Source: a virus
Virus record (IMG/VR): IMGVR_UViG_3300046005_002782
Span: 1-46,163 of that record
Length of the DNA: 46,163 nt
Strand: one strand, 5' to 3'
Shown here one piece after another: positions 18,296 through 42,159 of the stretch. How positions within the stretch are numbered: position 1 is the stretch's first letter; every line of letters starts with the position of its first letter. The notes beneath the pieces were generated by a model, which was not told the DNA's origin, did not search any database, and was given only the letters and a program-made list of their open reading frames with translations. The translations under genes and the position numbers were made by a program.

Positions 18296-19603
18296 TTATC
18301 CTATAGCCAAGCTCGCCTCTCGCCCTGTCGCAATCTCCCACCGCCGCACGGCCACGTCGCAATACACTGGGTCCAGTTCCATCGCGAAACACCGTCGCCC
18401 AGCGCGTTCGGCAGCGAGGATCTGCGTGCCGGAGCCGCAGAACGGTTCATAGATCAGATCGCCCGCATCCGAAAACGCCGTCAGCGCCGCCTCGACCAGC
18501 GCCACCGGAAACACCGCTGGGTGCGATCCGGCAGCGCCCAACCCGCCCTTGTGGCGCATGATGCGAAAGACGCTGTCGGGAATGCGATGGCTTTGGATTG
18601 CGTTGCCCGTTCCGGTCTTGGCGTGGACGGAGCCGTCCGCCCCGCGCAGCCCGCCGCCGCCGAGGACCTCGCCCGCATGCTTGGACGGCACAGTCTTGTG
18701 CGGTTTGCGTGGCGCGCGGTTGAAGTGGAAAATGAACTCGTGCGACGGGGCCAGACGGCCGTTCCAGTCGCCCGGCAAACCGGGACCCTGATCCCAAACA
18801 TACCAGCCAAACCGTCGCCAGCCAGAGGCGCGCATCCATTCGACCCATCCTTCCCAATAGGGCTGCCATTCGCTGTCGCGATGCACGAGGCCGAGGTTGA
18901 CCAGGACCTGCGCATCCGCAGTGACCGGCACTGCGGTGAAGACGCCTTGCATCAGCGCGTCCCAATCGCCGACCTTTTCCTTGGCCGCGCCATAGTCGCG
19001 CTGCTGGGCGTAGGGCGGCGAGGTGAACATCAGCGTCGCCTGTTCGCCCTGCATCAGCCTGGCGACGGCGGCCGGATCGGTGGCGTCGCCGCAGCATAGC
19101 CGGTGCTTGCCCAGCGCCCAGATGTCGCCCGGCTTGGTGATGGGTTCGGCGGGCGGGGCGGGGATGACATCGGCCGCATCGTCGGAAATCGCCGGGCGGT
19201 CCTCGGCGTCGGCCAGTAGTGCGTCCAGCTCATTTTCAGGGATCCCGAGCAGCCCGAGGTCAAAACCGTCGGCCAGCAGCGCCTGCAATTCCAGCGACAA
19301 CTGGGCCTCGTCCCATCCAGCGTTCTCGCCGATCTTGTTGTCTGCGATCACCAGCGCGCGGCGCTGTGCCTCGGTCAGATGACCCAGCACGATCACCGGC
19401 GCTTCTGTCATACCCAGTCGCTGCGCAGCCATCAGCCGACCGTGCCCTGCGATGATCACATCGTCGGCGCCTATCAGAATCGGGTTGACGAAGCCAAACT
19501 CTGCCATCGAGGCTGCGATTTGTGCGACTTGCTGGTCAGAGTGTGTTCGGGCGTTTCGCGCGTAAGGAACGAGGCGCGCGGTCGGCATCATCTGGATTTT
19601 CAT
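18296..19603 (-). CDS. ParB-domain DNA methyltransferase, SPPY type
   Basis: A 435-residue protein with an N-terminal ParB/Srx-like domain (about 5-95: YARNARTHSDQQVAQIAASM, VIIAGHGRLMAAQRLG) and a C-terminal amino-methyltransferase. The catalytic motif is TSPPY, and the SAM motif FCGSGTQILAAE comes after it, so it is a beta-class enzyme; S-PPY fits N4-cytosine or N6-adenine transfer. The start is ATG 19603, which shares one base with the preceding stop. It is a diverged paralogue of the methyltransferase two genes upstream. Phage methylases of this type protect DNA from host restriction. Confidence 0.85.
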   Translation of the reverse strand: MKIQMMPTARLVPYARNARTHSDQQVAQIAASMAEFGFVNPILIGADDVIIAGHGRLMAAQRLGMTEAPVIVLGHLTEAQRRALVIADNKIGENAGWDEAQLSLELQALLADGFDLGLLGIPENELDALLADAEDRPAISDDAADVIPAPPAEPITKPGDIWALGKHRLCCGDATDPAAVARLMQGEQATLMFTSPPYAQQRDYGAAKEKVGDWDALMQGVFTAVPVTADAQVLVNLGLVHRDSEWQPYWEGWVEWMRASGWRRFGWYVWDQGPGLPGDWNGRLAPSHEFIFHFNRAPRKPHKTVPSKHAGEVLGGGGLRGADGSVHAKTGTGNAIQSHRIPDSVFRIMRHKGGLGAAGSHPAVFPVALVEAALTAFSDAGDLIYEPFCGSGTQILAAERAGRRCFAMELDPVYCDVAVRRWEIATGREASLAIG

Positions 19604-19803
19604 CACAGCCGAAACCCCACTTCCAGCACACCCATTTCGATCAATCGGTTGATCGTCGGCAAAAAGTGATCGTTCGCGCCGGGCTTCATCATCTCTTCGA
19701 AAGTGCGCTTGATCGCTGCGTCATCCCACGGCGGCAACACAAATTGAGGTTTCTGTTCAAGCGGCGCGGCGCGCACAACTTGAGTCTCTTTGTCCAGCGT
19801 CAT
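19603..19803 (-). CDS. 66-residue protein between two methyltransferases
   Basis: MTLDKETQVVRAAPLEQKPQ opens a short acidic-basic protein whose second half is helical (DAAIKRTFEEMMKPGANDHF and LPTINRLIEMGVLEVG). Its ATG at 19803 overlaps the TGA of the upstream methyltransferase (ATGA), and its TGA overlaps the ATG of the next one. This embedding in both neighbours makes it a real gene. No family recognised; it could be a specificity or stability partner of either methyltransferase. Confidence 0.65.
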   Translation of the reverse strand: MTLDKETQVVRAAPLEQKPQFVLPPWDDAAIKRTFEEMMKPGANDHFLPTINRLIEMGVLEVGFRL

Positions 19804-21065
19804 GCTACAATGTTCGTCCTTTCTGCGTGTATCTCGGCGAAGGAACGACCATCGCCACCGAGAATGGCATCCTTTCCGCTCAAGTTCTGCCAACGCTCGA
19901 TGGCCACATCGACGTAAGCCGGGTTCAACTCGACCCCGAAGCAAACGCGTCCGGTGGTTTCTGCGGCGATCAGCGTGGTGCCGGACCCCATGAAGGGTTC
20001 GAACACCGCCTGACCGGGGCTGGAATTGTTCAGGATCGGGCGGCGCATGCATTCGACCGGCTTCTGCGTGCCATGCACGGTTGCCGCATCCTGATCCTTG
20101 CCTGAGATCTTCCAGAGCGTGGTTTGCTTCCGGTCGCCTGCCCAGTGGCCCTTGCCGGTCTTTTTCACGGCATACCAGCAGGGTTCGTGCTGCCAGTGAT
20201 AATCGCCGCGGCTGAGAACCAGACGGTCCTTGGCCCAGATGATCTGTGACCGGACAGCAAATCCCGCCGCCACCAGGCTCTCGGCCACGGTCGAGGCGTG
20301 CAGCGCGCCATGCCAGACATAGGCGACGTCCCCCGGGAACAGCGCCCACGCTTCGCGCCAGTCGGCTCGGTCGTCATTCAGCACCTTGCCAGTGCGTTTG
20401 GTTTTGGCGGCACCGGCCTGGTTGCGCCACGACGGGTCATACTCCACGCCATAGGGCGGATCGGTCACCATCAGCAGCGGGCGAACATCACCCAGCAGCC
20501 GCCCAACCACATCTGCTGATGTGCTGTCGCCGCAGATCAGCCGGTGCGATCCCAGCTGCCAGAGGTCGCCCGCGACCGAGACCGGCGTGACCGGCGGTTC
20601 GGGAATGTCATCCTCGCCCTCGACCGCGCCACCCTCGACCTGATCCGGGTCGCGCAGGAGGGCATCCAAGTCTTCGTCGGCGATCCCCAGCAGCGACAGG
20701 TCGAAATCCTCGGCCAATAGCCCCGCGATTTCGTCGCGCAGAATGGCCTCGTCCCACTCGCCCAATTCGGTCAGCTTGTTGTCGGCGATCCGGTAGGCAC
20801 GGCGCTCGGCCTCATCGAGGTGGCTGAGCCGGATCACCGGCACGTCCTTTAGCCCCAACATCGCCGCCGCCAACACCCGGCCATGCCCGGCGATCAGTTC
20901 GCCATCGTCGGCCACCATGCACGGAACGGTCCAGCCGAACTTCGCCATGCTGGCGGCAATCTTCGCCACCTGGTCGGTGCCATGGATCTTGGCATTGCGG
21001 GCATAGGGGCGCAGCCGGTCGAGAGGCCAAGTCTCGATCTTGCTCGGTGCAAAGACCAGGTCCAT
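19800..21065 (-). CDS. ParB-domain DNA adenine methyltransferase, DPPY type
   Basis: A 421-residue protein with an N-terminal ParB-like domain (LDRLRPYARNAKIHGTDQVA, ELIAGHGRVLAAAMLGL) and a C-terminal beta-class methyltransferase: VTDPPYGVEYDPSW is the catalytic motif IV and FEPFMGSGTTLIAAE the SAM-binding motif, with a HGTQKPVE element before it. DPPY points to N6-adenine methylation. The start ATG 21065 has only a weak TGAGAA upstream. It leads a four-gene leftward operon (21065-17584). Confidence 0.88.
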   Translation of the reverse strand: MDLVFAPSKIETWPLDRLRPYARNAKIHGTDQVAKIAASMAKFGWTVPCMVADDGELIAGHGRVLAAAMLGLKDVPVIRLSHLDEAERRAYRIADNKLTELGEWDEAILRDEIAGLLAEDFDLSLLGIADEDLDALLRDPDQVEGGAVEGEDDIPEPPVTPVSVAGDLWQLGSHRLICGDSTSADVVGRLLGDVRPLLMVTDPPYGVEYDPSWRNQAGAAKTKRTGKVLNDDRADWREAWALFPGDVAYVWHGALHASTVAESLVAAGFAVRSQIIWAKDRLVLSRGDYHWQHEPCWYAVKKTGKGHWAGDRKQTTLWKISGKDQDAATVHGTQKPVECMRRPILNNSSPGQAVFEPFMGSGTTLIAAETTGRVCFGVELNPAYVDVAIERWQNLSGKDAILGGDGRSFAEIHAERTNIVA

Positions 21066-21700: not shown

Positions 21701-23791
21701 TCACGACCCTTTCAGGAAATCGTCGACGAACTCAGACACCGGCGTGATGCCCGTTACCAAAAGATGGTCGCGTGCCCGGGTGCATGCGACATATAACAAG
21801 TGCCGTTCTGTGTTGTAGACCTCTTCGAGGTCAGCATCATCAGCCACCGATTCAATGCGATCCGATTGGGGAATGACATCGTCGTCGCAGGCCATGACGA
21901 CGACGGACCGGAATTCCAGACCCTTGGCGAAATGCATTGTGCTGATGGCGACAGCTCCATTCTCGACTTCGACCTTGTCGTTTAGTTCAACGGCGCGCGC
22001 ACCTGCAGCCTTAACCACAGCACGGGCGCGCTTCAGTTCCGCATCGGACCGCACGAATACGCCCACCTCGCTTGGTGCGCAGCCCTCCTTCAGCCGGTCC
22101 ATAATCCAATTGCCAACGACGCGGCACTCATGGTCGGCATCGGTGCATGCCATGACCATCGGTGGTGGACCGTCGAACATCGACACTGTGCCACGCCGTC
22201 CCTCCGCATTTCCGTCGACGTCTGAGACCGTTGTCGGAAGAAGCCTGTCGGCATGAAGGCGGATTTGATGGGACGTGCGATAGTTGATGCGCAGGGTGAA
22301 GGACCGACCGCGCACGTCCAAGCCCAGCGCCTTCCACGAAAATGGCTGCTGGAAGATCCGCTGCCCGAGGTCGCCTGCAAAGAATAGCCCGTCGCCACGC
22401 CCTACCGCCATTGCGGCGAAAAACCGTGCTTCAGCCACACCTAGATCCTGAGCCTCGTCGATGACCGCGAAATCATAGGGGCGAGCGGATTTTCCCACGA
22501 GGCTATCCGTCAATCGCCCGAACAAGTCCGACCAGGTGACAATGCGCCGTTCCACCAGGCCCGCCCGCACCCGTTCGAAGATGGACCAGAGGGCTTCGCG
22601 CTGCTTGCCGCCGATCCTGGTCTTGCGGCCAAGGCGGGACACGTCCCGATATTCGTCCCACGACCGCAGTTGCCAAGCGTCGACAACATCCTCCCATTCT
22701 CCGACAAGGAAATGGGTTGAGAAGCGGTGACCTTCGACCTCTGATGCCGCCTTGGTGATCAGGGAGCGGATCATCGCGGGAGCGGCGATCTGGGGTTGGC
22801 CGAACCGCTCGGAATAGAGGTCATAGCCAACCGCCGAGATCGCTTTGACGACGATCCGGGCGGCAATCGAAGGCTCGCCTGCCACCAGACTGGCCAATTT
22901 GACCCGAAGGGAATTGGCCAGCGCTCTAGAGAAGGTGGTCAGCAGCACAGTAGAGCCGGAGTTTGCGCGTGCCAGGTGAACTGCACGGTGCAGCGCCACG
23001 ATGGTCTTGCCCGTTCCTGCCGATCCCGACACGCGGGTCGGGCCGGAGAAGGACTTTTCGACCAGTTCGGCCTGAGCGGGATGCAGGAACACCGCCCATT
23101 TGTCCCAAGGGTAATCTAGCGCCTGCTTCAGCTCTTCGGCATTGGTCAGCACCCGGAAACGACGCTGGGCATCGGGATGGGCAAACGGATCGGCTTCGAC
23201 CGGCGCTGGCTCCGGCGGAAGCGGCTTTTCGCCCACGGCCAGTTTCAACAGGGCTTCCTGAGCCTCTTGTGGCAAGTGCTCGATGATGTCGAACAGCGTG
23301 TCCTCGGTGGCCGCGCGAACGTCGTTCACCCATTCCTCGGGCACGCCAAAGGCCATCAGTTCGAATTTGCGCAGGTTGTCGAACAACTTGACGGCTGGTT
23401 TCGCGGCGGGCGCCAGAGCAACCGGTGCTTCCTTGGGCTTGAAGATATCGACCTCTTCAACCCGCTCGCGCACTTCGACCAGTTGCATGGCGCCGGTCGT
23501 CGGGTGGCGTTCGATCTTGCGGCGTTCAGCCCATTTGTAGGCATCGTCATGATGATCGATATAGACCAGCAGGATGCTGGCGGCGGTGCGGTGGACGATG
23601 ATCCGGATGTCAGCATTCACACGCACCGACCAGAAGTTCATGTCCTTTGCACGATCAAGTTTGTGGAAGGATAGGCCGGGCGACGACGGATCCAGTTGTA
23701 GATCGAATGCGGTGGTCTTGGCCGCCTTCTGTTCCTGCGCTGTCAGGCGGCCGAGGCTGTCGGAAAAGGTGTCGGCGATCCGGAATTCCAT
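21701..23791 (-). CDS. RelE-like / UvrD-type helicase fusion
   Basis: A 696-residue protein. Residues 1-90 resemble a RelE/ParE/YafQ toxin fold: FSDSLGRLTAQEQKAAKTTA, FHKLDRAKDMNFWSVRVNAD, and IRIIVHRTAASILLVYIDHH followed by DDAYKWAERR. A linker follows. Then comes a superfamily 1 helicase: LHPAQ Q-motif (about 236-240), GSAGTGKT Walker A (256-263), VIDEAQD Walker B (443-449), NYRTSHQIR, and C-terminal MHFAKGLEFRSVVVMACD and LYVACTRARDHLLV motifs. It should be an ATP-dependent 3'-5' helicase or translocase. It is the last gene of the restriction cassette, 8 bp after the coiled-coil gene. Confidence 0.85.
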   Translation of the reverse strand: MEFRIADTFSDSLGRLTAQEQKAAKTTAFDLQLDPSSPGLSFHKLDRAKDMNFWSVRVNADIRIIVHRTAASILLVYIDHHDDAYKWAERRKIERHPTTGAMQLVEVRERVEEVDIFKPKEAPVALAPAAKPAVKLFDNLRKFELMAFGVPEEWVNDVRAATEDTLFDIIEHLPQEAQEALLKLAVGEKPLPPEPAPVEADPFAHPDAQRRFRVLTNAEELKQALDYPWDKWAVFLHPAQAELVEKSFSGPTRVSGSAGTGKTIVALHRAVHLARANSGSTVLLTTFSRALANSLRVKLASLVAGEPSIAARIVVKAISAVGYDLYSERFGQPQIAAPAMIRSLITKAASEVEGHRFSTHFLVGEWEDVVDAWQLRSWDEYRDVSRLGRKTRIGGKQREALWSIFERVRAGLVERRIVTWSDLFGRLTDSLVGKSARPYDFAVIDEAQDLGVAEARFFAAMAVGRGDGLFFAGDLGQRIFQQPFSWKALGLDVRGRSFTLRINYRTSHQIRLHADRLLPTTVSDVDGNAEGRRGTVSMFDGPPPMVMACTDADHECRVVGNWIMDRLKEGCAPSEVGVFVRSDAELKRARAVVKAAGARAVELNDKVEVENGAVAISTMHFAKGLEFRSVVVMACDDDVIPQSDRIESVADDADLEEVYNTERHLLYVACTRARDHLLVTGITPVSEFVDDFLKGS

Positions 23792-23799
23792 TGGTTGGC

Positions 23800-24195
23800 C
23801 TAATCCCCATCGCGCAGAACGCGCTTCTTTGGTTTTTGAACGACTACGACGACACGCGCTATACGCTCTTGCTCTTTGCGGAGCTTCTCCGCCTTGAGTG
23901 CGATGTATTCAGGATCGGTCTTAAGCCGTTCAGCTTCCTCACGAAGCTTCTTAGCCTTTAGCTTTCTGCGATTTTCCTGCTCAGCCTGCTTCAAACGAAT
24001 GCGCTCACCTTTCTCTTGTGCCTTCTTCTCGGCAGGCAGTTGCTCCGCTTTGGCCCATGTGTTTCTTTGGGCCCATTCAAGCTGATTCTTCTTCTTTTCC
24101 TCTACCGAAAGTCTTGGACCTACCTCGGGCTTTGAGAACCAGTCAGAGTTCGGACCGACTACTGTGGAACCACCCAAATAACCGCCTCGTCCCAT
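23800..24195 (-). CDS. Charged coiled-coil protein
   Basis: A 131-residue, very basic and acidic protein. ATG 24195 (MGRGGYLGG) is chosen because GGAG lies 8 nt upstream, overlapping the Mod stop. From about residue 35 it is a continuous helix of Lys, Glu, Arg and Ala heptads (EEKKKNQLEWAQRN, RKLKAKKLREEAERLK), then VVVVQKPKKR. No enzymatic motif. It lies between Mod and the helicase fusion in the same operon, 4 and 8 bp from its neighbours, so it is probably a small structural or adaptor subunit. Confidence 0.65.
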   Translation of the reverse strand: MGRGGYLGGSTVVGPNSDWFSKPEVGPRLSVEEKKKNQLEWAQRNTWAKAEQLPAEKKAQEKGERIRLKQAEQENRRKLKAKKLREEAERLKTDPEYIALKAEKLRKEQERIARVVVVVQKPKKRVLRDGD

Positions 24196-24199
24196 TCCC

Positions 24200-27097
24200 T
24201 CACTCCACCGCAAACACCTTCATCACTTCGTCCCCGAGGTGGTTGATCACCTTCACCGCGATTCTGCCCGACTTCGGTTTCGCAAACGGCCGGGACGTGT
24301 CGGAATACAGGCTCTCCCAAGCTTCCTCGTCAATCTCGGCCTTCAGTGTTGTTTTCAGCGCCTTGTAGGGGTCGTTGGCGCCGAGGAAATAGGCGTGGCG
24401 GACGAAGAACGACTCCTCGTTGTAGTCGGTGTCCAGCATCCACAGGGCGATGCCGTCCGTCCCCTCGGTCTGCACCTCGCCGGTCTGGGGCTTGAACACG
24501 TCCACGCCGAAGACCTGGACCGTCACCAGACCGTCGCCAGCATCGGCGATGCGGATGTCGGGTTCGCCGAAGATCACGAACAGGTTGCCAGCGCCGGTGG
24601 CTTTCAGGTCGGCGGCCATGTGCAGGTCGGGGTTCATGCGGGCCTTCAGCACGCGGATACGGCCCAGTTTGTCGAACTCGGACGAATGGGCGTCGTAGTT
24701 GAAGGCGCAGGCGATCAGCACGTCGAAACCGGCGTCGCCTGCCTCGCGCGCGGCGGCGACCAGATCGGGGCGGGAGACGGTGCCGAATTCGGGGCCGATG
24801 AACACACCGGCGCGGCGCTGGGTGTCGCCTTCCATGAAGGTGCCCTCGGCGCTGATGTAGGTGCCGGGCCAGCCTGTCAGGGCGGTGAAGGTGATCCGGT
24901 CCTCCTTATGCGCCTGCTGCACGCCCGCGGCTTTCAGGTTTTCCAGGATCATATGGGCGAAATCTGTGAAGTCGCGCGGGGCCTCGGCCTTCTTGCGCTT
25001 GCCCTCAGCGGCCTCATAGGTGTCGATCAGTTCGTCATCCCAATCGACGGCGAGGGTGCGGTGGGGTGACAAGCTTTCTACGGTGAAGGGGCCCGCGACG
25101 CGGGTTTTAGTGTTGTCGGCGAAGGGCTTGTCGTAGAGGTATTCGAACTCGGCCTTGGCGGCGATGCTGGCGTCGATTTCGCGCTGGCGGTTGATCCGGT
25201 AGTGCCAGAACTTGCCAAGGCTTTCCTGTGCAATCAACGGCCAATCGGCAGGGGCATCGCGCGGGACTTCCCATTCCAAAAGCCGACCCGCGGCAACAAC
25301 CTCGCCCGAGGGGAGTTTCTCTTCTTCAGCTGATCGGAAGTCGATCTTCTTTCCAGCACGGCCGCCGGTTTCCACTTTGAACGGCACATTGTGGCCGCGT
25401 AGCCGGTCGTTGAGGTAGTCCAACGCCTCTTCCACACCGGGCTGAAGCCTGTGCCAGATCACGTCGATTTCGGCGTTGTTGGCGATGGATTTCAGCGTGA
25501 TGTGCGGCACGCGGTCATAGACGAAGCCTTGGCGGATGCTGCCGTGAGTGGGGGTGGATTTGGGCGGGGTGCGGGTGATCTCGCCTTCTTTCGCTTGGCC
25601 TTCCTTGCTGTCGGCCAGGAGGTAATAAGGATAGCGCGCGCCCATGAGGCGCGAGCGGGCCAAGGCTACGGCAACGCGAGAGGTGTCGATGGTGATCCAG
25701 CGTCGTCCCCATTGTTCGGCCACATAGGCAGTGGTGCCGGAGCCGCAAGTGGGATCAAGCACCAGATCTCCGGGGTCGGTGGTCATCAGGATGCAGCGTT
25801 CGATGACCTTGGTGGCAGTTTGAACGACGTAGACTTTTTCACCTGGTCGTCCCGCAATGGCCGTATCGCCCCAAGAGTGCGTAACCGAAACAACCGCAAA
25901 ATCGTCCAGAAAGCGCCGATAGGCGAGCGACACGGACCTCTGGCCAATACGATCACATTTCGCGAGCCGATCCAAACCACCAAGGGTCGTTTTCCAGTTC
26001 ATCGCCGCGCCAGGATGGGACACTCGCCCTTGGAAAGTATAATCAACGGTGGTGTTGGCTCGGACCCCTTGGCTGATCAAGTTGTCGAACCGAAAGACCT
26101 TTTGATTTTCCGGAAGTTTAACACCATCGTCAGCTTTTCCAGTGCTCCCGTATTCGTCAACCCACTGTCGATATTCTCCGCCACCGACTCCCCCAATTTC
26201 TTTTCGCATGTATGGCTGACGAAACTTGCATTTCGCTTTGACCTTGGAAAACCAGACTAGGTAGTCACTGACAACTGGCAGGAAATCGCTTGTTGTCCCG
26301 GAGGATTTTTGGAAGGTTATCAACGCTTGGAAATTGTCTTCGCCGAACACTTCTTCCATTACGCTTCGCACGCGGTGGACGTTCTCGTCGCCGATTTGCA
26401 CGAAGATGCTGCCGCTGTCGCTTAGCAGATCGCGCGCCACTGTCAGACGGTCGCGCAGGTAGGTCAGGTAGGAATGGATGCCGTCCTTCCAGGTGTCGCG
26501 AAAGGCGCGGACCTGTTCGGGTTCGCGCGTCACATGGGTCTTGTCGCCATCCTTCACATCGCGCGAGGTGGTGGACCACTGGAAGTTGGAGTTGAACTTG
26601 ATGCCATAGGGCGGGTCGAAATAGATGCACTGCACCTGACCGCGTAAGCCTTCCCGCTCGGCGAGGCTGGCCATCACCGACAGGCTGTCGCCCGAGATCA
26701 TCCGGTTCGACCAGTGCTGATCGTGCTGGTAGAACTCGGTCGCGGCCTCGGCATCGGGCAGGCCGTTGAAATCGGCGAACATGTCGAACTGCGGGGCATC
26801 CTTGGTCGCCTTAGCCCGGTTGGCGCTTTCGCGTTTCAGGTCGTCGATGATGACCTTGGGGTGGACCTTTTCCTGAATGTACAGCGGCGGGGCCTGAACG
26901 ATCAGGTCGGACCAATCCTGCTCATCCTTGCCGCGCCAGACGAGCTGCGGATCGAGGTCGCGGTTGCGGCGTTCGTAGGCCAGCTGGATCGGCGTCTTGT
27001 CCTGATCGCGCATCAGGCTTTCGAACTCGGCCGTCGGGATGTTCTTTCGCGTGGCGTCGTGGGTGAGGGTTTCGACCTCGATGGGTTTCTTGGCCAT
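24200..27097 (-). CDS. mod: Type III-like DNA methyltransferase (Mod)
   Basis: A 965-residue protein starting MAKKPIEVETLTH; ATG 27097 overlaps the TAA of the preceding gene (TAATG). The open frame extends further upstream but there it only shadows the DUF262 gene. Beta-class order: IYFDPPYG (161-164 DPPY) first and LDPTCGSGTTAYVAEQWG (448-456) later, as in type III Mod and related N6-adenine enzymes. The large C-terminal half (about 500-965) is target recognition and interaction domain. It should methylate one strand of the recognition site and supply specificity to Res. Confidence 0.9.
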   Translation of the reverse strand: MAKKPIEVETLTHDATRKNIPTAEFESLMRDQDKTPIQLAYERRNRDLDPQLVWRGKDEQDWSDLIVQAPPLYIQEKVHPKVIIDDLKRESANRAKATKDAPQFDMFADFNGLPDAEAATEFYQHDQHWSNRMISGDSLSVMASLAEREGLRGQVQCIYFDPPYGIKFNSNFQWSTTSRDVKDGDKTHVTREPEQVRAFRDTWKDGIHSYLTYLRDRLTVARDLLSDSGSIFVQIGDENVHRVRSVMEEVFGEDNFQALITFQKSSGTTSDFLPVVSDYLVWFSKVKAKCKFRQPYMRKEIGGVGGGEYRQWVDEYGSTGKADDGVKLPENQKVFRFDNLISQGVRANTTVDYTFQGRVSHPGAAMNWKTTLGGLDRLAKCDRIGQRSVSLAYRRFLDDFAVVSVTHSWGDTAIAGRPGEKVYVVQTATKVIERCILMTTDPGDLVLDPTCGSGTTAYVAEQWGRRWITIDTSRVAVALARSRLMGARYPYYLLADSKEGQAKEGEITRTPPKSTPTHGSIRQGFVYDRVPHITLKSIANNAEIDVIWHRLQPGVEEALDYLNDRLRGHNVPFKVETGGRAGKKIDFRSAEEEKLPSGEVVAAGRLLEWEVPRDAPADWPLIAQESLGKFWHYRINRQREIDASIAAKAEFEYLYDKPFADNTKTRVAGPFTVESLSPHRTLAVDWDDELIDTYEAAEGKRKKAEAPRDFTDFAHMILENLKAAGVQQAHKEDRITFTALTGWPGTYISAEGTFMEGDTQRRAGVFIGPEFGTVSRPDLVAAAREAGDAGFDVLIACAFNYDAHSSEFDKLGRIRVLKARMNPDLHMAADLKATGAGNLFVIFGEPDIRIADAGDGLVTVQVFGVDVFKPQTGEVQTEGTDGIALWMLDTDYNEESFFVRHAYFLGANDPYKALKTTLKAEIDEEAWESLYSDTSRPFAKPKSGRIAVKVINHLGDEVMKVFAVE

Positions 27098-29019
27098 TAC
27101 GCGGCTTCTCCTGTGGTGGTGTCGGCCAGATCGAAGCCTTCGTCGTCTTGCGGGATGTCCTGACCTTCCTCTGGGTCGGGAGCGGTCCTGCCGACAGGGT
27201 GGCCGGTCGCGGCCGAGATCAGGGCCAGCAGGCGGTCTTCGCGGTCGGCCATGAAGTCGGCAAACCGGTCGGCACGGAGGTGCGAGGGATCGATGGCATG
27301 GCTGGCAAGGTAGGTGTCGAGGGTTGCTGGATCGATTGGCGGAGCGTCGGCTGTGCCCTTTTCCAGCTTGGCGAGGTAGAGGGAGGGCGCCACGCCACCG
27401 ACGATGCGGTTCGTCTTCTGGCCCAGCGGCGTCTTGTTGATGATAGTGTCGTAGACCGCAGGCGGGATTTTGGCGTCGGTGCACCATTTCTGCGGAAAGA
27501 TATGGTGGATATCGACGTATTCGTCGAAGAATACCGTGTGGGTGAAGGATTGACCCGAGCGGAAGTCGATTGCGCCTTCGTTCATCAGTAGGGCGTGGAT
27601 GCCCTTGTATGCGGCCGACAACCGGGTGCGCATGGTGCGCAGTCGTTCCGGACGAAAACGACCCTCGGTGATGGTGGTGGGTTCTGGGCCGCCATCAAGC
27701 CAGGTCGGAACCTCGAGTACGTCCTTAGCGAAGCGGGACTCGACCGCCAAGCCGTAGAGCTCGCCAAAGATGCCGCACCAATACCAACGGGCAAGTTTGG
27801 CTTTCACTGTGGCATGGTCGAACTTCGCCCCAATGCGGGCGAGGATGGCTGCGAAGGGGACCAGCTGGCCCTGATAGGGCAGGTCGATCACGCGGTAGAT
27901 GTGGTGCTGGCGCAGGAAGCGGGCAGCGGTCTTGAATCCTTCCTCGACGGCGTGGCGGTGTTCGAGATAGGCTTCGAGCGGCAGGTCCAGCAGGGATTGG
28001 CGCGAGGCTCGGACGGCAGAGAATTCGCTATCCTTGCGGCCTTCTGTGATTTCCTTTTCACGGGTCTTGGCGCCATGGACTAAGGCAATTGCCTGCAGAA
28101 CGTCAGTGCTTGCGACCTTCTCCAGCACGCCGAACTTTTGATCTGCCGCGCGTCCATAAACTTGAAGGCGGTTTTGAAGCCCAAGTTTGCCGTCAGTCCC
28201 TAGCCAATCGTCGCGCAGCCGGTGCCCTTTCGCAGCATACATGGCGGTAACTAGTTCGAAGGCATCCAGCGGCTTGCCCCCTGTGTTTACCTTTTCGAAC
28301 ACGAGGCAAACTGCTTCGTGTGATGTGTCTGGGCTGAGGGCAATAACTGGAACTTGATAGCCTTTGAAGTTTTCGAGGACTTCCGTCTTGAAGGTCATGA
28401 AGACCTCTATCTTCTCGAGATCGTCTTTTGCCTTCCAATATGACCAGAAGCCCATCATCCAATCCGTCCAGTCAAAGACCTGGTTCAGCGGAAACATCAG
28501 GTTCTGGTATTCGAGTTCGGCCGAGGAGAGGTCAAGGTCGACCTCCTTGCCAAAGGCCGACTTCACTTTGCGATCTCTAGGGATGCTGATAATTGCGTTT
28601 TGGCGATCCATATCGCCGTCCAGCGCTGCGCTGATGTCAATGTAGAACCAACGGTCCACCAGTTTCAGGCGGGGTGTAACTGTCTGCACAACCTCGCGCC
28701 GCATGCAGGTCTGGTAAAGCGAGGTCATACGCTGTTGGCCGTCGAGCAATAGCTGGTCAGGAAGCTGGTCGGCAGCTGATGCCAATGCTCCTTGCACAGG
28801 ACGGCGAGCGAAGGTCTCGGCGGTACCGGACTTCATTTCGAGCGTCATTAGCGCACCGACGGGAAACGCCTGCGAAATGGATGCCACCAGCCCCTTGATC
28901 CGTTCTTCATCCCAAACCCAGCTGCGCTGGAAATCGGGAAGCTGGATTTTCCCAATGGCGCAATGGCGCAGCAGTTCTTCAAGGCCTACCGGGTTCGTTC
29001 TAAATGCAGCCTGTTTCAT
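27097..29019 (-). CDS. DUF262/HNH nuclease (GmrSD/SspE-like architecture)
   Basis: A 640-residue protein. The N-terminal DUF262 domain has IQLPDFQRSWVWDEERIKGL (about 25-44) and LLDGQQRMTSLYQ with the DGQQR NTPase motif at 93-97. The C-terminal part has an HNH/DUF1524-type centre, YVDIHHIFPQKW (H505, H506) followed by NKTPLGQKTNR. This is the architecture of type IV enzymes such as GmrSD single-chain forms, BrxU and SspE, which cut modified DNA. Here it is embedded between Res and Mod with overlapping codons on both sides (ATGA with Res, TAATG with Mod), so it is made together with them. Confidence 0.85.
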   Translation of the reverse strand: MKQAAFRTNPVGLEELLRHCAIGKIQLPDFQRSWVWDEERIKGLVASISQAFPVGALMTLEMKSGTAETFARRPVQGALASAADQLPDQLLLDGQQRMTSLYQTCMRREVVQTVTPRLKLVDRWFYIDISAALDGDMDRQNAIISIPRDRKVKSAFGKEVDLDLSSAELEYQNLMFPLNQVFDWTDWMMGFWSYWKAKDDLEKIEVFMTFKTEVLENFKGYQVPVIALSPDTSHEAVCLVFEKVNTGGKPLDAFELVTAMYAAKGHRLRDDWLGTDGKLGLQNRLQVYGRAADQKFGVLEKVASTDVLQAIALVHGAKTREKEITEGRKDSEFSAVRASRQSLLDLPLEAYLEHRHAVEEGFKTAARFLRQHHIYRVIDLPYQGQLVPFAAILARIGAKFDHATVKAKLARWYWCGIFGELYGLAVESRFAKDVLEVPTWLDGGPEPTTITEGRFRPERLRTMRTRLSAAYKGIHALLMNEGAIDFRSGQSFTHTVFFDEYVDIHHIFPQKWCTDAKIPPAVYDTIINKTPLGQKTNRIVGGVAPSLYLAKLEKGTADAPPIDPATLDTYLASHAIDPSHLRADRFADFMADREDRLLALISAATGHPVGRTAPDPEEGQDIPQDDEGFDLADTTTGEAA

Positions 29020-32000
29020 GCCTGCTCTGCCTGTTCACTGATCGAGGCTTTTGCAGCGTCGCATTGCTGTTCGATCAGTTCCTTGAATTCCAATTCCATC
29101 TCGTACACCGCCGTGAACTCTGCGAACGCCCAGCGCCCAAACTTCTCAAGGTTGTTGACGCCAGGCACCCAATAGCTGCGCATGGTGTTGGCCTTGTCCT
29201 TTGCGTCCTCGCCCCGGTAGCCTTTGACCTCGACGATCAGGTTCAGCGGGTCGGGTTTACCTTCGGCGGTGAGGTGGCCGTCGTCGATCTGCACGATGAA
29301 GTCGGGCAGGTATTTGCGTGGGGTGGAGCCATTCAGGTAAGGCACTTCGAGGCCAAGCCCCTGATTCTTGACGTAGGAAAGCACGCGCGGGTGTCCCTCG
29401 GCGACGCGGGCAAATTCGGCCTCCCAATCACTGTCGCAAACCACCCAATTGACGTGCGATTTGTTCGGTGCAGTCTGCCAACGCAATTCCTTGGAGGTGG
29501 TGAAGTTGACGTTGGCTGTCGATCCGGTGGAGTTGTAGGCGTCAAGGATCGCTTTGACCGGGCGTTCTCCTTGTAGGGATTCGGTGATGGCAGCCTTGAT
29601 CCTCTCGGCCGCCATGTCGGCGATTTCTTTGTAAACCAGCTGTGCCGGATACGTGCCGCCGGTACATTTCAGATAACCGCCGTCCAGCCATTGCTTGGTA
29701 ACGCGCTTAAGCTGGCCGAATAGGTGCATCTTGGGTTCATCACCTGGATCGCGGTATTTCGCATAGAGCAGGTGTTTGGTCAGATGGAACAGAATCGTGG
29801 AAGAGCGCATGTCTTCTAGATGCGCCAACGTCAGATCGATGCCTTCGCCGATAATGCCTTGATTGGTGGTGCTGGAGGGGCCGAGCAGTTGCGGCGTCAG
29901 TTCCAGCACGTGGTCTGGGCCGAAGTTCGCCTCAAGACGTTCATCCGGCAACTCCACCCGGTAGCCTTCGACGCGGGGGAAGGTGATCTCCAGTGCGTCA
30001 CGGTCGGGTTTGACAGCATGGACGCGGACAGTTTCGCGGGGCTTGCCGGGCGGTGACACGACAGGTTTCGCGGCGAAGTCGAAGGGGATGCCAAGGACAT
30101 CGGCGTATTCGACATTGAACAGGCCTTCGTCATTCAGTTCATACGACTGGCGGCGCAGGGCGCGGCCGACCACCTGTTCGCACAAAAGCTGAGTCCCGAA
30201 AGCCCGGACGCCCAGAACGTGGGTCACAGTGTTGGCGTCCCAGCCTTCGGTGAGCATCGAGACTGAAACCACGCAGCGGATTTGTTCGCCCAGTTTGCCC
30301 TTCTTGCCGACAGTGTTCATCACTTCGCGCAGTAGGGTGGATTCGTCGATCTTGTCGCCTGCGTGAATATCGCCAGTACGTTCGATCATCTCGCGTTTAA
30401 ACTGGTCGATTTCCGTTGCAGCAATCTCGCGAAAATCCTTGTCCAGCGCCTCGCCCGATTCAAGCTGAGCGCTGTCGATCAGGATTGTGTTGGGACGCGG
30501 CATCCGGTTGCCAAATTCATCATAGTTCCGGAACAGGGCAAGGCGGCCATTTTCCAAGGTGGTCTCGGTGCCATCGTCGCTTACCCTGTCAAAGCCGGAG
30601 ACATACTTGTAGATCAGCTCCGAAGTTGCCGTGTTGTTGCAAACGACGATGAACACCGGCGGGACGCCAATCGCTTCTTCCTGCCAAAGATGGAAGGTCT
30701 TTTCGTAGTGCCCATAAAGGGCCTCAAGTGCCGTCAGCAACTCGGCGGGCAGACTAAGTGGATCGAGCGCCTTTCCAGCGACCCGCCCCTTCTTGGGAAG
30801 CTTCTTACCGATATGCTCCCAAAGGTTGCGGAACTTCGGCGTGTCGCCACCCGGGATATTGTCGGCCACCGGCACACGCGGCAACTTCACGATGCCGCAC
30901 TCGATCGCGTCCATTAGCGAGAAATCCGACATGGTCCACGGGAACAGCGTGCCCTCGATGTAACCGGAGCCGCGTAGGAAGAACGGGGTTGCGGACAAGT
31001 CGTAGACCAAGCTTATCCCTAGCTTGCGCTTGACGGCTTCCAAGCCCGAAATCCACATGCGGGCCGCTTCGTTGTTTTCCTTGGCTTCGCTTTTGTCGTC
31101 GCCCTTCAGATCGTCTTCGGTTTCTCCGTCGGCATCTTTAGCCCGTTCGCGATAGCAGTGGTGGGCTTCGTCATTCAGCACGACGATGTTCTTCTGGCCC
31201 ATCAGGTCGCCCATGACGCGCTGGATCATCTCGCCTTCGGTTTCAAGCGTCTGGACCTTGTCGCCACGCCAGCCCTCGAGGGCTTGTCGTGTGCCTTTGG
31301 CGATCACCAGTTTTTCGCGCAGCTTGAATGCGTGATAGTTGGTGATCACGATCTTGGCGCTTTGGATGTCGCGCAGCATGTCGGGCGGCGTGATTTCACG
31401 GCTGCGATAGTAGCTTTCCGGGTCGTTGGGCATCAGAACACGCAGCCGGTCGCGAATGGTGATGCCCGGGGAGACGATCAAGAATCGGCTGGAGAACGCC
31501 TTGCTGTTTGGATGGCGCACCGCGTTGACGGTTTGCCAAGCTATCAGCATCGCCATGACGGTAGTTTTTCCTGCCCCGGTCGCGAGCTTCAGCGCCAAAC
31601 GCATCAGTTCGGGGTTCGCCTGTTCGTTCGCCCCTTTGATATGCGCCCAGAATTTGGCCACGCGCGGCCCCATCTTCGGAGCAACTTCTGTCAGCCAGAT
31701 CGCGGTTTCCACTGCTTCGATCTGGCAAAAGAACGGACGGATGCCCTCAAATTTGTGGTGCCGCCAGTGTTGCAGTAGTCGTGCGGTCTCTGGCGTCACC
31801 AGCCATTGATCGGGGTTCGGCAGATTGCGCCAGGTTTCGACATACCCCCGAACCTCGTTGATGATTGGGGTGGGGTTGTATTCTTGATCAGATGTCGAAA
31901 GTTCGTCATTGGCGCCGAGCAACAGGGACGCCTGTTTCGTGTTCTGACGCTGCTTTTTCGTTTTGGGAACGGGTGTGATGAGATCGGAGCGCCGCCTGTT

Positions 32001-32108
32001 CTCGAGTATGCGGTTTGTGGGCTGACCATCCGGATCAAGTTCCCAATGCCTGCCGGGGTACGCGTAAGGTGAATTCAGAATCGGTTTTGCAAAGAACTGC
32101 TCAGACAT
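29016..32108 (-). CDS. res: Type III-like restriction subunit (Res), helicase-nuclease
   Basis: A 1030-residue superfamily 2 helicase. Walker A is LATGAGKTTVMAML (176-183), the DEAH box is VVLNDEAHHCY (313-316), motif III is DLSATPFF (372-374), and motif VI is EQVVGRALRRQSYE. The C-terminal PD-(D/E)xK nuclease is YLPDFIVQIDD with LIVEVKGYRG (about 935-962). ATG 32108 is used because GAGAGG lies upstream; it overlaps the HTH gene stop by 8 nt. It should hydrolyse ATP and cut unmethylated DNA together with Mod. Confidence 0.88.
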   Translation of the reverse strand: MSEQFFAKPILNSPYAYPGRHWELDPDGQPTNRILENRRRSDLITPVPKTKKQRQNTKQASLLLGANDELSTSDQEYNPTPIINEVRGYVETWRNLPNPDQWLVTPETARLLQHWRHHKFEGIRPFFCQIEAVETAIWLTEVAPKMGPRVAKFWAHIKGANEQANPELMRLALKLATGAGKTTVMAMLIAWQTVNAVRHPNSKAFSSRFLIVSPGITIRDRLRVLMPNDPESYYRSREITPPDMLRDIQSAKIVITNYHAFKLREKLVIAKGTRQALEGWRGDKVQTLETEGEMIQRVMGDLMGQKNIVVLNDEAHHCYRERAKDADGETEDDLKGDDKSEAKENNEAARMWISGLEAVKRKLGISLVYDLSATPFFLRGSGYIEGTLFPWTMSDFSLMDAIECGIVKLPRVPVADNIPGGDTPKFRNLWEHIGKKLPKKGRVAGKALDPLSLPAELLTALEALYGHYEKTFHLWQEEAIGVPPVFIVVCNNTATSELIYKYVSGFDRVSDDGTETTLENGRLALFRNYDEFGNRMPRPNTILIDSAQLESGEALDKDFREIAATEIDQFKREMIERTGDIHAGDKIDESTLLREVMNTVGKKGKLGEQIRCVVSVSMLTEGWDANTVTHVLGVRAFGTQLLCEQVVGRALRRQSYELNDEGLFNVEYADVLGIPFDFAAKPVVSPPGKPRETVRVHAVKPDRDALEITFPRVEGYRVELPDERLEANFGPDHVLELTPQLLGPSSTTNQGIIGEGIDLTLAHLEDMRSSTILFHLTKHLLYAKYRDPGDEPKMHLFGQLKRVTKQWLDGGYLKCTGGTYPAQLVYKEIADMAAERIKAAITESLQGERPVKAILDAYNSTGSTANVNFTTSKELRWQTAPNKSHVNWVVCDSDWEAEFARVAEGHPRVLSYVKNQGLGLEVPYLNGSTPRKYLPDFIVQIDDGHLTAEGKPDPLNLIVEVKGYRGEDAKDKANTMRSYWVPGVNNLEKFGRWAFAEFTAVYEMELEFKELIEQQCDAAKASISEQAEQA

Positions 32109-32310
32109 CCGAAGCACCTCTCCCGAGGTTTGCTTTCACGGATGCCTTCTGTTCATCGATCCAGCTATCGATATCAAGGTTCTTAAACCGCCATTGGCCT
32201 CGCACCTTGAACGCGGGAAGCTGACCGTTGCGCGCCATCGTGTAGACAGTTTTCTCAGCAACCTTCAACAATACTGCAACCTCTGGCAAAGTGAGAATAG
32301 GGTCGGACAT
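32101..32310 (-). CDS. Excisionase-type HTH protein heading the restriction cassette
   Basis: A 69-residue MerR/excisionase-like (HTH_17) protein: ILTLPEVAVLLKVAEKTVYT and MARNGQLPAFKVRGQWRFKN followed by LDIDSWI. AGGAG lies 9 nt before the ATG. It is the first gene of the leftward cassette and overlaps Res by 8 nt. HTH proteins of this size commonly precede restriction genes, where they delay or repress Res expression; that role is inferred. Confidence 0.8.
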   Translation of the reverse strand: MSDPILTLPEVAVLLKVAEKTVYTMARNGQLPAFKVRGQWRFKNLDIDSWIDEQKASVKANLGRGASDV

Positions 32311-32367: not shown

Positions 32368-33045
32368 CTAGCTGTTGATTGCTCTTAGTTGCACATCAAG
32401 CCAAGGCCGCACCTTCGGCATCGCCGCCGCAACCTCAACCTCCCGCAACATCCCGCCCGCGATCAACCCATCCCGCACCCAATCCAGCGCCAGCCACCAG
32501 TCGTCGTAAGCGCAGCGTGCGGCGTCGATCTGCTGCGGGTGGGGGGAGAAGGTGACCGGGCAAACCAGCACCTCGACGGTGCGCCATTTGCCGCGCGACA
32601 GGACGTGTTCAGTGCCCACGACGATGGTAGTGGCGCGCTCGCCATGTTGGTTGCGCTTGGTCTCGACCGGCACGCAACGTGGCACGACGCCGGGCATCCA
32701 GTCGGGGGTCAGCCCAGCGCGTGCCAGTTCTGCCACACGGATGGCCATGCGCTTGCCGCCGTGGCTGTCGGGCATCCCGGCGACGGCGGCCGCGATCACC
32801 TCGGCGTCAGGATGGGTGCAACTGCCCATCTTGTGCTGGCCACCGTCGATCCTGCAGCCCAGCGCGGCGCGTTGCATGAGGATATACTCTAGGCCAAAGC
32901 CAAACCCGTCACGGGAGTTGTGTTCTTGTTCTGGAAGTTCCAGCTGCGCCTTTTCCACGCCGAAGGCCCATTCGAGGATGGCCTGCACGCCGAGGGCGCG
33001 TTTCTGCCGGATGCCGCGACTGTTGATTGGCCGCATGAAGGTCAT
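32368..33045 (-). CDS. Unknown phage protein downstream of replication gene
   Basis: A 225-residue protein starting MTFMRPINSRGIRQKRALGV, overlapping the replication gene stop by 4 nt (ATGA). Basic N-terminus, then a region with GLEYILMQRAALGCRIDGGQ and EVIAAAVAGMPDSHGGKRMA, and a Trp-rich end, CAYDDWWLALDWVRDGL. No catalytic motif that I recognise. As the last gene of the early operon, next to replication functions, it may be a replication or late-regulation accessory. Confidence 0.65.
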   Translation of the reverse strand: MTFMRPINSRGIRQKRALGVQAILEWAFGVEKAQLELPEQEHNSRDGFGFGLEYILMQRAALGCRIDGGQHKMGSCTHPDAEVIAAAVAGMPDSHGGKRMAIRVAELARAGLTPDWMPGVVPRCVPVETKRNQHGERATTIVVGTEHVLSRGKWRTVEVLVCPVTFSPHPQQIDAARCAYDDWWLALDWVRDGLIAGGMLREVEVAAAMPKVRPWLDVQLRAINS

Positions 33046-34067
33046 CGCACCCCCCGCATCCGCAGGCGTTCGGTCGTGACCAAGCCACGAGCCAACATGG
33101 CGTCGCGGGTGGTGTTGCTGATCGCGCTGACGGGCAGGTATCGGTCGGAATTGACCAGTTCGGCGTAGAAGGCAGCCAGATTGTCGGGGCTGGGGCGGGA
33201 CGCCGGGTCGGCTTTGCTCGGCCGTTTGAGCGTTTTCGACTTCGTGGCCCCCTCAGCGGCCATCGCACCGTGCTGGGCCGCCCGTTCCATGGCCCGGTCC
33301 AGCGCCTTCGGTCCATCGGGGGGATTGGGATGATCGCCGCGGGTTTCGGTGGCGACGTCGAGGATCCGGTCCTCGGACAACCCGAGGTCTCGGATCCAAC
33401 GCTGGACGTGCAGCCGCGCTGGCCAGCCCTGCCACCAGGCGGGGAGGTGGGCGTTGGCTGCGAAGCCCAGCGCCGAAAGCAGGTCTGCAAAAAACCGATC
33501 AAAATCGGCATCGCGCGCTTGCGCGTCCTCCTCCTCCTTTACTGGTTTACTTAGTGGTTCTCTTACAAGGTTAGTGTCCGGAATTCGGACACGGCTTTCG
33601 GCATTTTCCGGACACGGCTCGGGGCAAAATTCGGACACGGCTTCGGTCTCAATCCCGTGTCCGAAATCCGGACATGGCACGGGAAGGGAAGGGGCATCCA
33701 CACCGCAAACGCCCACATTTTCGGTTGCCTTTGCATCGCCTATCACCCCGCGTCCGATTTCCGGACACGGACCCACATCAACCGGCGTGAAGCCTGGCTC
33801 AAACCCCAGGATGTAGCGGGTCGGCAACTGACGCTTGGTCACAGGATCGATGCGCGGCACCCGGCGCAACAAACCGCCCGCCTCAAGCTGTCCGAGGTGA
33901 TCGTTCAGCGTGGATCGGCTGATCTCACAATCATGCGCCAGCCGGTCTTGTGAGGGGAAGCAGCCGTAATCCGGATTGAACCTGTCGCACAGGTGCCAGA
34001 GCACGATCTTGGTGGTGGGCTTCAACCCGCGCTGCTTGATTGCCCAGTTGGTGGCGTCGTGGCTCAT
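33042..34067 (-). CDS. Phage replication initiator-like protein (winged helix)
   Basis: A 341-residue protein. Residues about 15-75 form a winged HTH: TTKIVLWHLCDRFNPDYGCF and PSQDRLAHDCEISRSTLNDH followed by LGQLEAGGLLRRV, as in phage replication proteins of the lambda O functional class. Residues 100-165 are a Pro/Cys-rich linker encoded by the iteron DNA (33574-33770). Residues about 180-300 form a helical domain with WWQGWPARLHVQRWIRDLGL. Initiator proteins of this sort bind repeats inside their own gene. Operon: ATGA overlaps with VRR-NUC upstream and the unknown gene downstream. Confidence 0.75.
   Translation of the reverse strand: MSHDATNWAIKQRGLKPTTKIVLWHLCDRFNPDYGCFPSQDRLAHDCEISRSTLNDHLGQLEAGGLLRRVPRIDPVTKRQLPTRYILGFEPGFTPVDVGPCPEIGRGVIGDAKATENVGVCGVDAPSLPVPCPDFGHGIETEAVSEFCPEPCPENAESRVRIPDTNLVREPLSKPVKEEEDAQARDADFDRFFADLLSALGFAANAHLPAWWQGWPARLHVQRWIRDLGLSEDRILDVATETRGDHPNPPDGPKALDRAMERAAQHGAMAAEGATKSKTLKRPSKADPASRPSPDNLAAFYAELVNSDRYLPVSAISNTTRDAMLARGLVTTERLRMRGVR
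33574..33770. repeat. Iterons inside the replication gene: candidate phage origin
   Basis: The core CGGACACGG occurs at 33586-33594, 33609-33617 and 33632-33640, exactly 23 bp apart, with CGGACACGGCT identical in all three. The inverted core CCGTGTCCG sits at 33655-33663, again 23 bp on. Further copies are CGGACATGG at 33669-33677 and CGGACACGG at 33762-33770. The first copy is part of a palindrome GTGTCCG-GAATT-CGGACAC (33574-33592). An AT-richer stretch (about 33530-33573) lies beside the array. In lambda the origin iterons lie in the same place, inside the linker-coding part of gene O. Confidence 0.7.
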
Positions 34068-41181: not shown

Positions 41182-41301
41182 GGTGTTGATTTTCACCCAG
41201 AACTGACCCGGCTTTGAGTGTGGATTTCGGGGCAGGCGGAGGTCAAATCTCAATGAAAATTATACGCCTTCCCGGGTCAGTTCTGGGTGAAAATCAACAC
41301 C
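41182..41301. mobile_element. 120-bp MITE-like element with perfect 30-bp terminal inverted repeats
   Basis: Bases 41182-41211 are the exact reverse complement of 41272-41301, leaving a 60-bp centre with no coding capacity. The repeats start with GGTGTTGATTTTCACCCAG. It separates the truncated tail fibre gene from an IS3 orfB that has lost its own 5' end. I see no obvious target-site duplication. Such structures are typical of miniature derivatives of larger insertion sequences; the parent element is not in the window. Confidence 0.7.
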
Positions 41302-42159
41302 GTGAGGTTTCGGTTCGTCGAGGAACATCGCGGCAGCTTTGCAACGGATCGGTTGTGTCAGGTGATGAACGTCAGACCGCGCGGGTTGCGGGCTTTTCGC
41401 AGCCGCCCTGCCAGCCGCAGGCAGCACACAGACATGGTCGTTCTGGCCCACATCAAAGAACAGTCACGCCTGAGCCTGAGCAGCTACGGTCGTCCCAGGA
41501 TGACCAAAGAGTTAAAGGAGGTTGGCGTCGATGTGGGGCATCGCCGTGTTGGGCGGTTGATGCGTGAGAACGGGATCGTCGTTGAAAGAACACGGAAATT
41601 CAAGGCGACCACGGACAGCGATTACACGTTCAACATGGCTCCGAACCTGCTGGATCGTGACTTCACGGCAGATCAACCGAACCAGAAGTGGGCCGGTGAT
41701 ATCAGTTATATCTGGACCCGCGAGGGGTGGCTGTATCTGGCCGTAATCCTGGACCTGCATTCGCGGCGCGTCATTGGCTGGGCCGTCAGCAACCGCATGA
41801 AGCGTGACTTGGCGATCCGAGCGCTAAGGATGGCCATTGCCTTGCGAGCACCGCCCAAGGGCTGCATCTTCCATAGCGACAGGGGCAGTCAATATTGTTC
41901 GCATGATTACCAGAAAATCCTGCGAGAGCGTGGGTTCAAGGCGTCAATGAGCGGCAAAGGCAATTGCTATGTCAACGCCGCCGTCGAGACCTTCTTCAAG
42001 ACCATCAAGGCCGAACTGATCTGGCGCAGATCTTGGGAAACGCGTCGACAGGCCGAAACCGCCATCTTCCAATATATCAACGGCTTCTATAACCCGCGCC
42101 GTCGACATTCAGATTTGGGAGGTAAAAGCCCCTTGGCCTTCGAGCGCCAAGTGGCCTAA
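41287..42159 (+). CDS. IS3-family transposase OrfB, 5'-truncated
   Basis: The OrfB sequence proper starts at about 41302 (VRFRFVEEHRGSFATDRLCQ); the ATG at 41287 lies within the repeat of the 120-bp element, which therefore supplies a new start. A complete DDE catalytic core is visible: WAGDISYIWTREGWL (first D), CIFHSDRGSQYC (second D) and NAAVETFFKTIKAELIW (E). It ends with the conserved YNPRRRHSDLGGKSPLAFER. OrfA, normally upstream and joined by frameshifting, is missing, so the element is not autonomous. Confidence 0.88.
   Translation: MKINTVRFRFVEEHRGSFATDRLCQVMNVRPRGLRAFRSRPASRRQHTDMVVLAHIKEQSRLSLSSYGRPRMTKELKEVGVDVGHRRVGRLMRENGIVVERTRKFKATTDSDYTFNMAPNLLDRDFTADQPNQKWAGDISYIWTREGWLYLAVILDLHSRRVIGWAVSNRMKRDLAIRALRMAIALRAPPKGCIFHSDRGSQYCSHDYQKILRERGFKASMSGKGNCYVNAAVETFFKTIKAELIWRRSWETRRQAETAIFQYINGFYNPRRRHSDLGGKSPLAFERQVA

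Follow-up and report, generated by a model that had tools for sequence, protein, structure and literature searches.

A very likely lambda-type replication origin within the O-like initiator gene of a temperate siphophage-like prophage

We have analyzed a 46,163-nucleotide stretch of viral DNA (hereafter the window; positions 1 to 46,163 of IMG/VR record IMGVR_UViG_3300046005_002782). Because its genes include a tyrosine integrase together with terminase, portal, protease, head and tail genes, the window is interpreted as a temperate siphophage-like prophage. The prophage is of the Rhodobacter/Paracoccus type, and its relatives in genome collections come mainly from members of the Rhodobacterales, among them Paracoccus, Rhodobacter, Gemmobacter and Tabrizicola. 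A large defence-like cluster (21701-32117, minus strand) separates the initiator region from the late genes and contains a UvrD-type helicase, a type III-like DNA methyltransferase, a GmrSD/DUF262 protein and a ResIII helicase with a possible endonuclease domain. It matches any single PADLOC system poorly and may be cargo. Two neighboring proteins (18296-19606 and 19800-21065, minus strand) each have a ParB-like nuclease domain joined to a DNA methyltransferase, and a transposase gene (41287-42159, plus strand; PHROG 157) is found past the integrase end of the phage genes.

The gene under study (33042-34067, minus strand) encodes a 341-aa protein that matches PHROG 345, "replication initiation O-like" (E 2.7e-27), and Pfam HTH_36 (E 9.6e-14). 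Its winged-helix DNA-binding domain, to which the HTH_36 assignment applies, spans codons 1-90 (33798-34067, minus strand) and was modeled by AlphaFold2 with pLDDT values mostly between 69 and 91. The model places the recognition helix at codons 51-63 (33879-33917, minus strand). A disordered linker at codons 99-172 (33552-33773, minus strand; pLDDT below 50 over residues 99-172) separates this domain from a helical C-terminal region at codons 177-341 (33045-33539, minus strand), which has a second low-confidence break at residues 275-290 and is assumed, by analogy with lambda O, to be the helicase-recruiting part. A sequence search for relatives with a solved structure found none. Fold searches returned weak matches for the winged-helix part alone, for example to the DnaD N-terminal domain, and a putative replication protein O ranked 26th in the viral library.

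The disordered linker encodes a repeat array and most of an adjacent AT-rich block. Exact copies of CGGACACGG start at 33586, 33609, 33632 and 33762 on the plus strand and at 33655 on the minus strand, and the starts at 33586, 33609, 33632 and 33655 are separated by steps of exactly 23 bp. The copy at 33669 (CGGACATGG) has one mismatch to CGGACACGG. The initial annotation had described these copies, their 23-bp phasing with the inverted copy at 33655, the two further copies at 33669 (one mismatch) and 33762, a palindrome around the first copy (found at 33574-33594) and the placement of the array within codons 100-165 or so, between two domains; the sequence and the AlphaFold2 model agree on every point. 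Absent from that list was an inverted arm at 33748 (CGGACGCGG, one mismatch), so the array is better described as three palindromes and two half-sites, with 33748-33770 and 33655-33677 forming palindromes like that at 33574-33594. In gene orientation (minus strand), the order is palindromic site 1 (33748-33770; gene nt 298-320), palindromic site 2 (33655-33677; gene nt 391-413), direct half-site 3 (33632-33640, minus strand; gene nt 428-436), direct half-site 4 (33609-33617, minus strand; gene nt 451-459) and palindromic site 5 (33574-33594; gene nt 474-494), which adjoins the AT-rich block. All five sites are conserved in homologues. Arms start at gene nt 298 (forward), 312 (reverse), 391 (forward), 405 (reverse), 428, 451 and 474 (all forward), with the right arm of the last palindrome ending at gene nt 494, and those at 405, 428, 451 and 474 share a single 23-bp step. 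Since 23 is not a multiple of three, the copies occupy different codon frames and encode different peptides. These seven copies are the sole tight cluster of CGGACACGG matches in the 46 kb; the remaining 21 one-mismatch matches are scattered, in line with expectation for a 9-mer (a mean of 20 in shuffles).

Directly following the last palindrome in gene orientation is a candidate DNA unwinding element (33537-33573, minus strand) with the sequence TAACCTTGTAAGAGAACCACTAAGTAAACCAGTAAAG, in which TAA(G/A) recurs every 12 bp. An AT-richer block at about 33530-33573 had been noted previously and is real: the gene's least stable 50-mer is 33537-33586 (40% GC), and just 0.08% of the window's 50-mers fall below it in stability. 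The least stable 40-mer falls at the position of the element in 170 of 186 homologues, and in 188 genes, spanning the iteron classes, the consensus TAACCnTGTAAGnGAACC is 92-100% conserved at every position except the two n. Searches for DnaA boxes found five one-mismatch sites in the whole window, which is the chance level, and none in the origin, and GC skew has no clear switch at the array. Just beyond the unwinding block, DNA-level conservation in relatives extends to 33511-33536, a polypurine run accompanied by a short inverted repeat (GGAGGAGGAGGACGCGCAAGCGCGCG, minus strand); this stretch could have a role in primosome assembly or ribosome binding. Immediately past the polypurine run, a 200-aa ORF starts in another frame (32909-33511, minus strand); it is probably a chance reading frame, because its start codon is missing in one relative (L009).

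In order to evaluate chance, synonymous codons were shuffled within the gene in 5000 trials that kept the protein and codon use. The gene contains five exact copies, against at most three in any permutation. Seven near-copies were attained in 18 of the 5000 permutations and two 23-bp pairs alone, a weak criterion, in 196; the strength of the array therefore rests on the exact copies and on homologues. From IMG/VR, species genomes and phage records, 227 distinct homologous genes were extracted, with a readable anchor in 224; the RcKemmy protein, used as a query, found no relatives in IMG/VR. Half-site spacings of 23 bp occur 343 times in the homologous genes, and three codon frames are used by the copies in 167 of 205 genes. 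A database search with a permitted gap of 5-25 bp from one copy to the next returned 22 contigs, all 22 with the 23-bp period, and in 19 of these the copies lie inside a recognized initiator ORF, mostly at codon 151. Synonymous diversity relative to that expected from codon usage was calculated for 106 close relatives with the anchor at the same position, and was 0.58 for the HTH, 0.70 for the spacer, 0.31 for the first palindrome, 0.20 for codons 131-165 and 0.16 for the AT-rich block. Repeats and AT-rich block thus have the lowest synonymous variation among the regions compared (codons 1-190), even though at the peptide level the linker varies more than the HTH. Two of the points put forward for follow-up were examined. 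Repeats conserved no further than the protein code requires would have refuted the origin, but the low synonymous diversity of these 106 relatives points the other way; the search for arrays in the homologous gene of related phages found the layout kept, with different repeats, in diverged relatives. The array is more than protein code.

In diverged relatives, layout and spacing are unchanged and other repeats are present, namely GTGTCTCA, GTGTCGCA, GTGTCCA and CATCTCCGG, with AACCGGACA in Rhizobium-type phages. The variants carry TCCG, TCCA, TCTCA or TCGCA, or have CTCC in place of GTCC, and within one gene all copies are swapped together. These differences follow the recognition helix, which in the window reads S50-R51-S52-T53-L54-N55-D56 and in which residues 51, 52 and 56 co-vary with half-site bases. 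Arg51 is paired with the G of GTC, and other residues with a different base, in 149 of 149 rows and 51 of 51 clusters; Arg56 is paired with TC[T/G]CA in 148 of 149 rows. When the helix-masked domain was clustered at 80% identity, giving 31 clusters, residue 56 predicted the following bases in 30. Asp, Glu, Cys or Leu at this position accompanies TCCG (14/14 clusters), Asn, Thr or Gly accompanies TCCA (8/8) and Arg accompanies TCTC or TCGC (5/5), while Val occurs with TCCA in three clusters and with TCCG in one. Residue-base mutual information across the 31 clusters is highest at residues 56 and 52. Exceptions are the helix SRSTLNV with TCCGG in one cluster and a relative (L126) that has Glu56 but a TCTCA arm. 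Clades with changed helices (SISALN, SRATLNR and SRSGLNN) nest inside the main group on supported branches, and the C-terminal domains of their nearest members are 62-73% identical to that of the window. Helix and sites share one gene and are co-inherited, a caveat to the co-variation, and independent switches of helix and site are so few that significance is out of reach for a sign test on supported branches. Because the repeat variants follow recognition-helix residues 51 and 56, the initiator very probably binds the repeats in its own gene, with Arg51, Ser52 and Asp56 as the likely base readers.

The initial annotation had likened the array to lambda ori, and the likeness holds for the position within the gene, the spacing and the side on which the AT-rich DNA lies. 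The O gene of lambda has four iterons mid-gene (gene nt 349-433), spaced by 20, 24 and 23 bp, and the AT-rich region follows them on the downstream side (PMC7466680). Lambda O/ori, with its Shiga-toxin-phage relatives, and the window have in common an N-terminal DNA-binding domain, phased mid-gene iterons and a downstream AT-rich block. In contrast to lambda, the repeat of the window is unrelated to ATCCCTCAAAACGAGGGA, palindromes are mixed with half-sites, the unwinding block has conserved repeats of about 12 bp, and a P homologue was not found next to the initiator. The suggestion of an independent initiator-origin pair was correct insofar as the repeat is unlike that of lambda, but "independent" is too strong a term because lambda O (5e-17) and the window's initiator both match PHROG 345; a direct profile comparison of lambda O with the window's initiator family by hhalign was negative. 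The next gene (32368-33045, minus strand; PHROG 9306, unknown function) overlaps the initiator gene by 4 bp, as lambda O and P overlap each other. This gene is replaced in many relatives by other ORFs, often resembling a DNA methyltransferase, and its structure model is poor, leaving a role as a lambda P-like loader unsupported. No lambda P-like partner was found adjoining the initiator gene, and these phages may need no P homologue to recruit host DnaB.

The lytic-stage origin of phage P1, oriL, is likewise thought to lie inside its initiator gene, repL, with an AT-rich region found to be essential by synonymous recoding (PMC9948254); an iteron array of the window's kind is not among the features described in the abstract of that report. 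Homologous genes with internal phased repeats are present in the Rhodobacter RcC phages, Labrenzia phage vB_LagS-V1 and Rhizobium phage PPF1, the latter two also having the block of about 12-bp repeats. Their iteron sequences differ from those of the window, the proteins are deposited merely as helix-turn-helix or regulator proteins, and iterons go unmentioned in the paper on the RcC phages. In Klebsiella phage LASTA, a protein annotated as a transcriptional regulator is homologous in its HTH part, and around codons 101-118 its gene has repeats spaced by 24 and 23 bp (record L390, 1804-1862). Unlike the window, LASTA has only three copies, lacks palindromes and infects a gammaproteobacterial host. 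Given these 23/24-bp-phased repeats, intragenic arrays of the window's kind may reach beyond the Alphaproteobacteria.

Based on sequence, we consider it very likely that the locus is a lambda-type intragenic replication origin of a temperate siphophage-like prophage, contained in the coding sequence of the prophage's own initiator. Through the recognition helix from residue 51, the winged-helix domain of this O-like protein would bind CCGTGTCCG half-sites, and several bound molecules would assemble into a nucleoprotein complex, putting the neighboring AT-rich block (33537-33573), phased at about 12 bp, under enough strain to melt it. The C-terminal domain would then bring the replicative helicase, probably that of the host. 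Initiator binding, dimerization, melting, helicase recruitment and origin firing are the steps that we infer.

An alternative is that the sites are operators at which the initiator or a phage repressor mainly blocks transcription of the gene, with replication starting elsewhere. Autoregulation is frequent among winged-helix proteins and the sites are palindromic, but they lie 300-500 bp inside the coding region instead of at a promoter, and there is no second cluster of copies in the window. Operators would also leave unexplained the adjacent conserved low-stability block with its repeats of about 12 bp, and the protein belongs to an O-like initiator family; if the binding protein were a separate repressor, the co-variation with the initiator's own helix would be unaccounted for as well. 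We regard this reading as improbable, although roadblock autoregulation could coexist with an origin. The palindromes might otherwise serve as centromere-like or nuclease sites for the two ParB-like-domain/methyltransferase proteins of the prophage, as parS sites are palindromic too. This is very improbable, considering that the site sequence co-varies with the initiator's helix, that a prophage with a tyrosine integrase has no obvious need of partition, and that the AT-rich block would again be left unexplained.

We give almost no credence to the view that the array simply reflects codon bias and a linker peptide that is itself repetitive, and has no function at the DNA level. The linker does repeat PCPE/CPD motifs, and the 23-bp pairs alone arise in the synonymous permutations at the frequency given above. 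However, the copies are spread over three codon frames and specify different peptides, none of the 5000 permutations contained five exact copies, synonymous diversity has its minimum at this very place although the HTH is the better conserved peptide, and diverged relatives have replaced all copies together. Frame use and the synonymous-site tests rule out a protein-code artefact.

For the intragenic origin, we further propose, at roughly even odds, that specificities are modular and evolving: residues 51, 52 and 56 would set the half-site, and the copies would have changed together several times, yielding initiator-origin pairs that ignore one another beside a shared, about 12-bp-phased unwinding element. 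If true, a readable protein-DNA code may govern lambda-type initiators. No earlier report of these origins was found in the open-access literature searched; new here are the form that this variant takes, how widely it occurs and the co-variation of the initiator helix with the iterons. Proteins annotated merely as "helix-turn-helix" become probable replication initiators with mapped origins in about 200 distinct genes of phages and prophages, mostly from Alphaproteobacteria. These genes provide a natural data set of joint change in initiator residues and origin bases, making origin specificity testable by single-residue swaps, and the origins could act as replicons for bacteria with few genetic tools.
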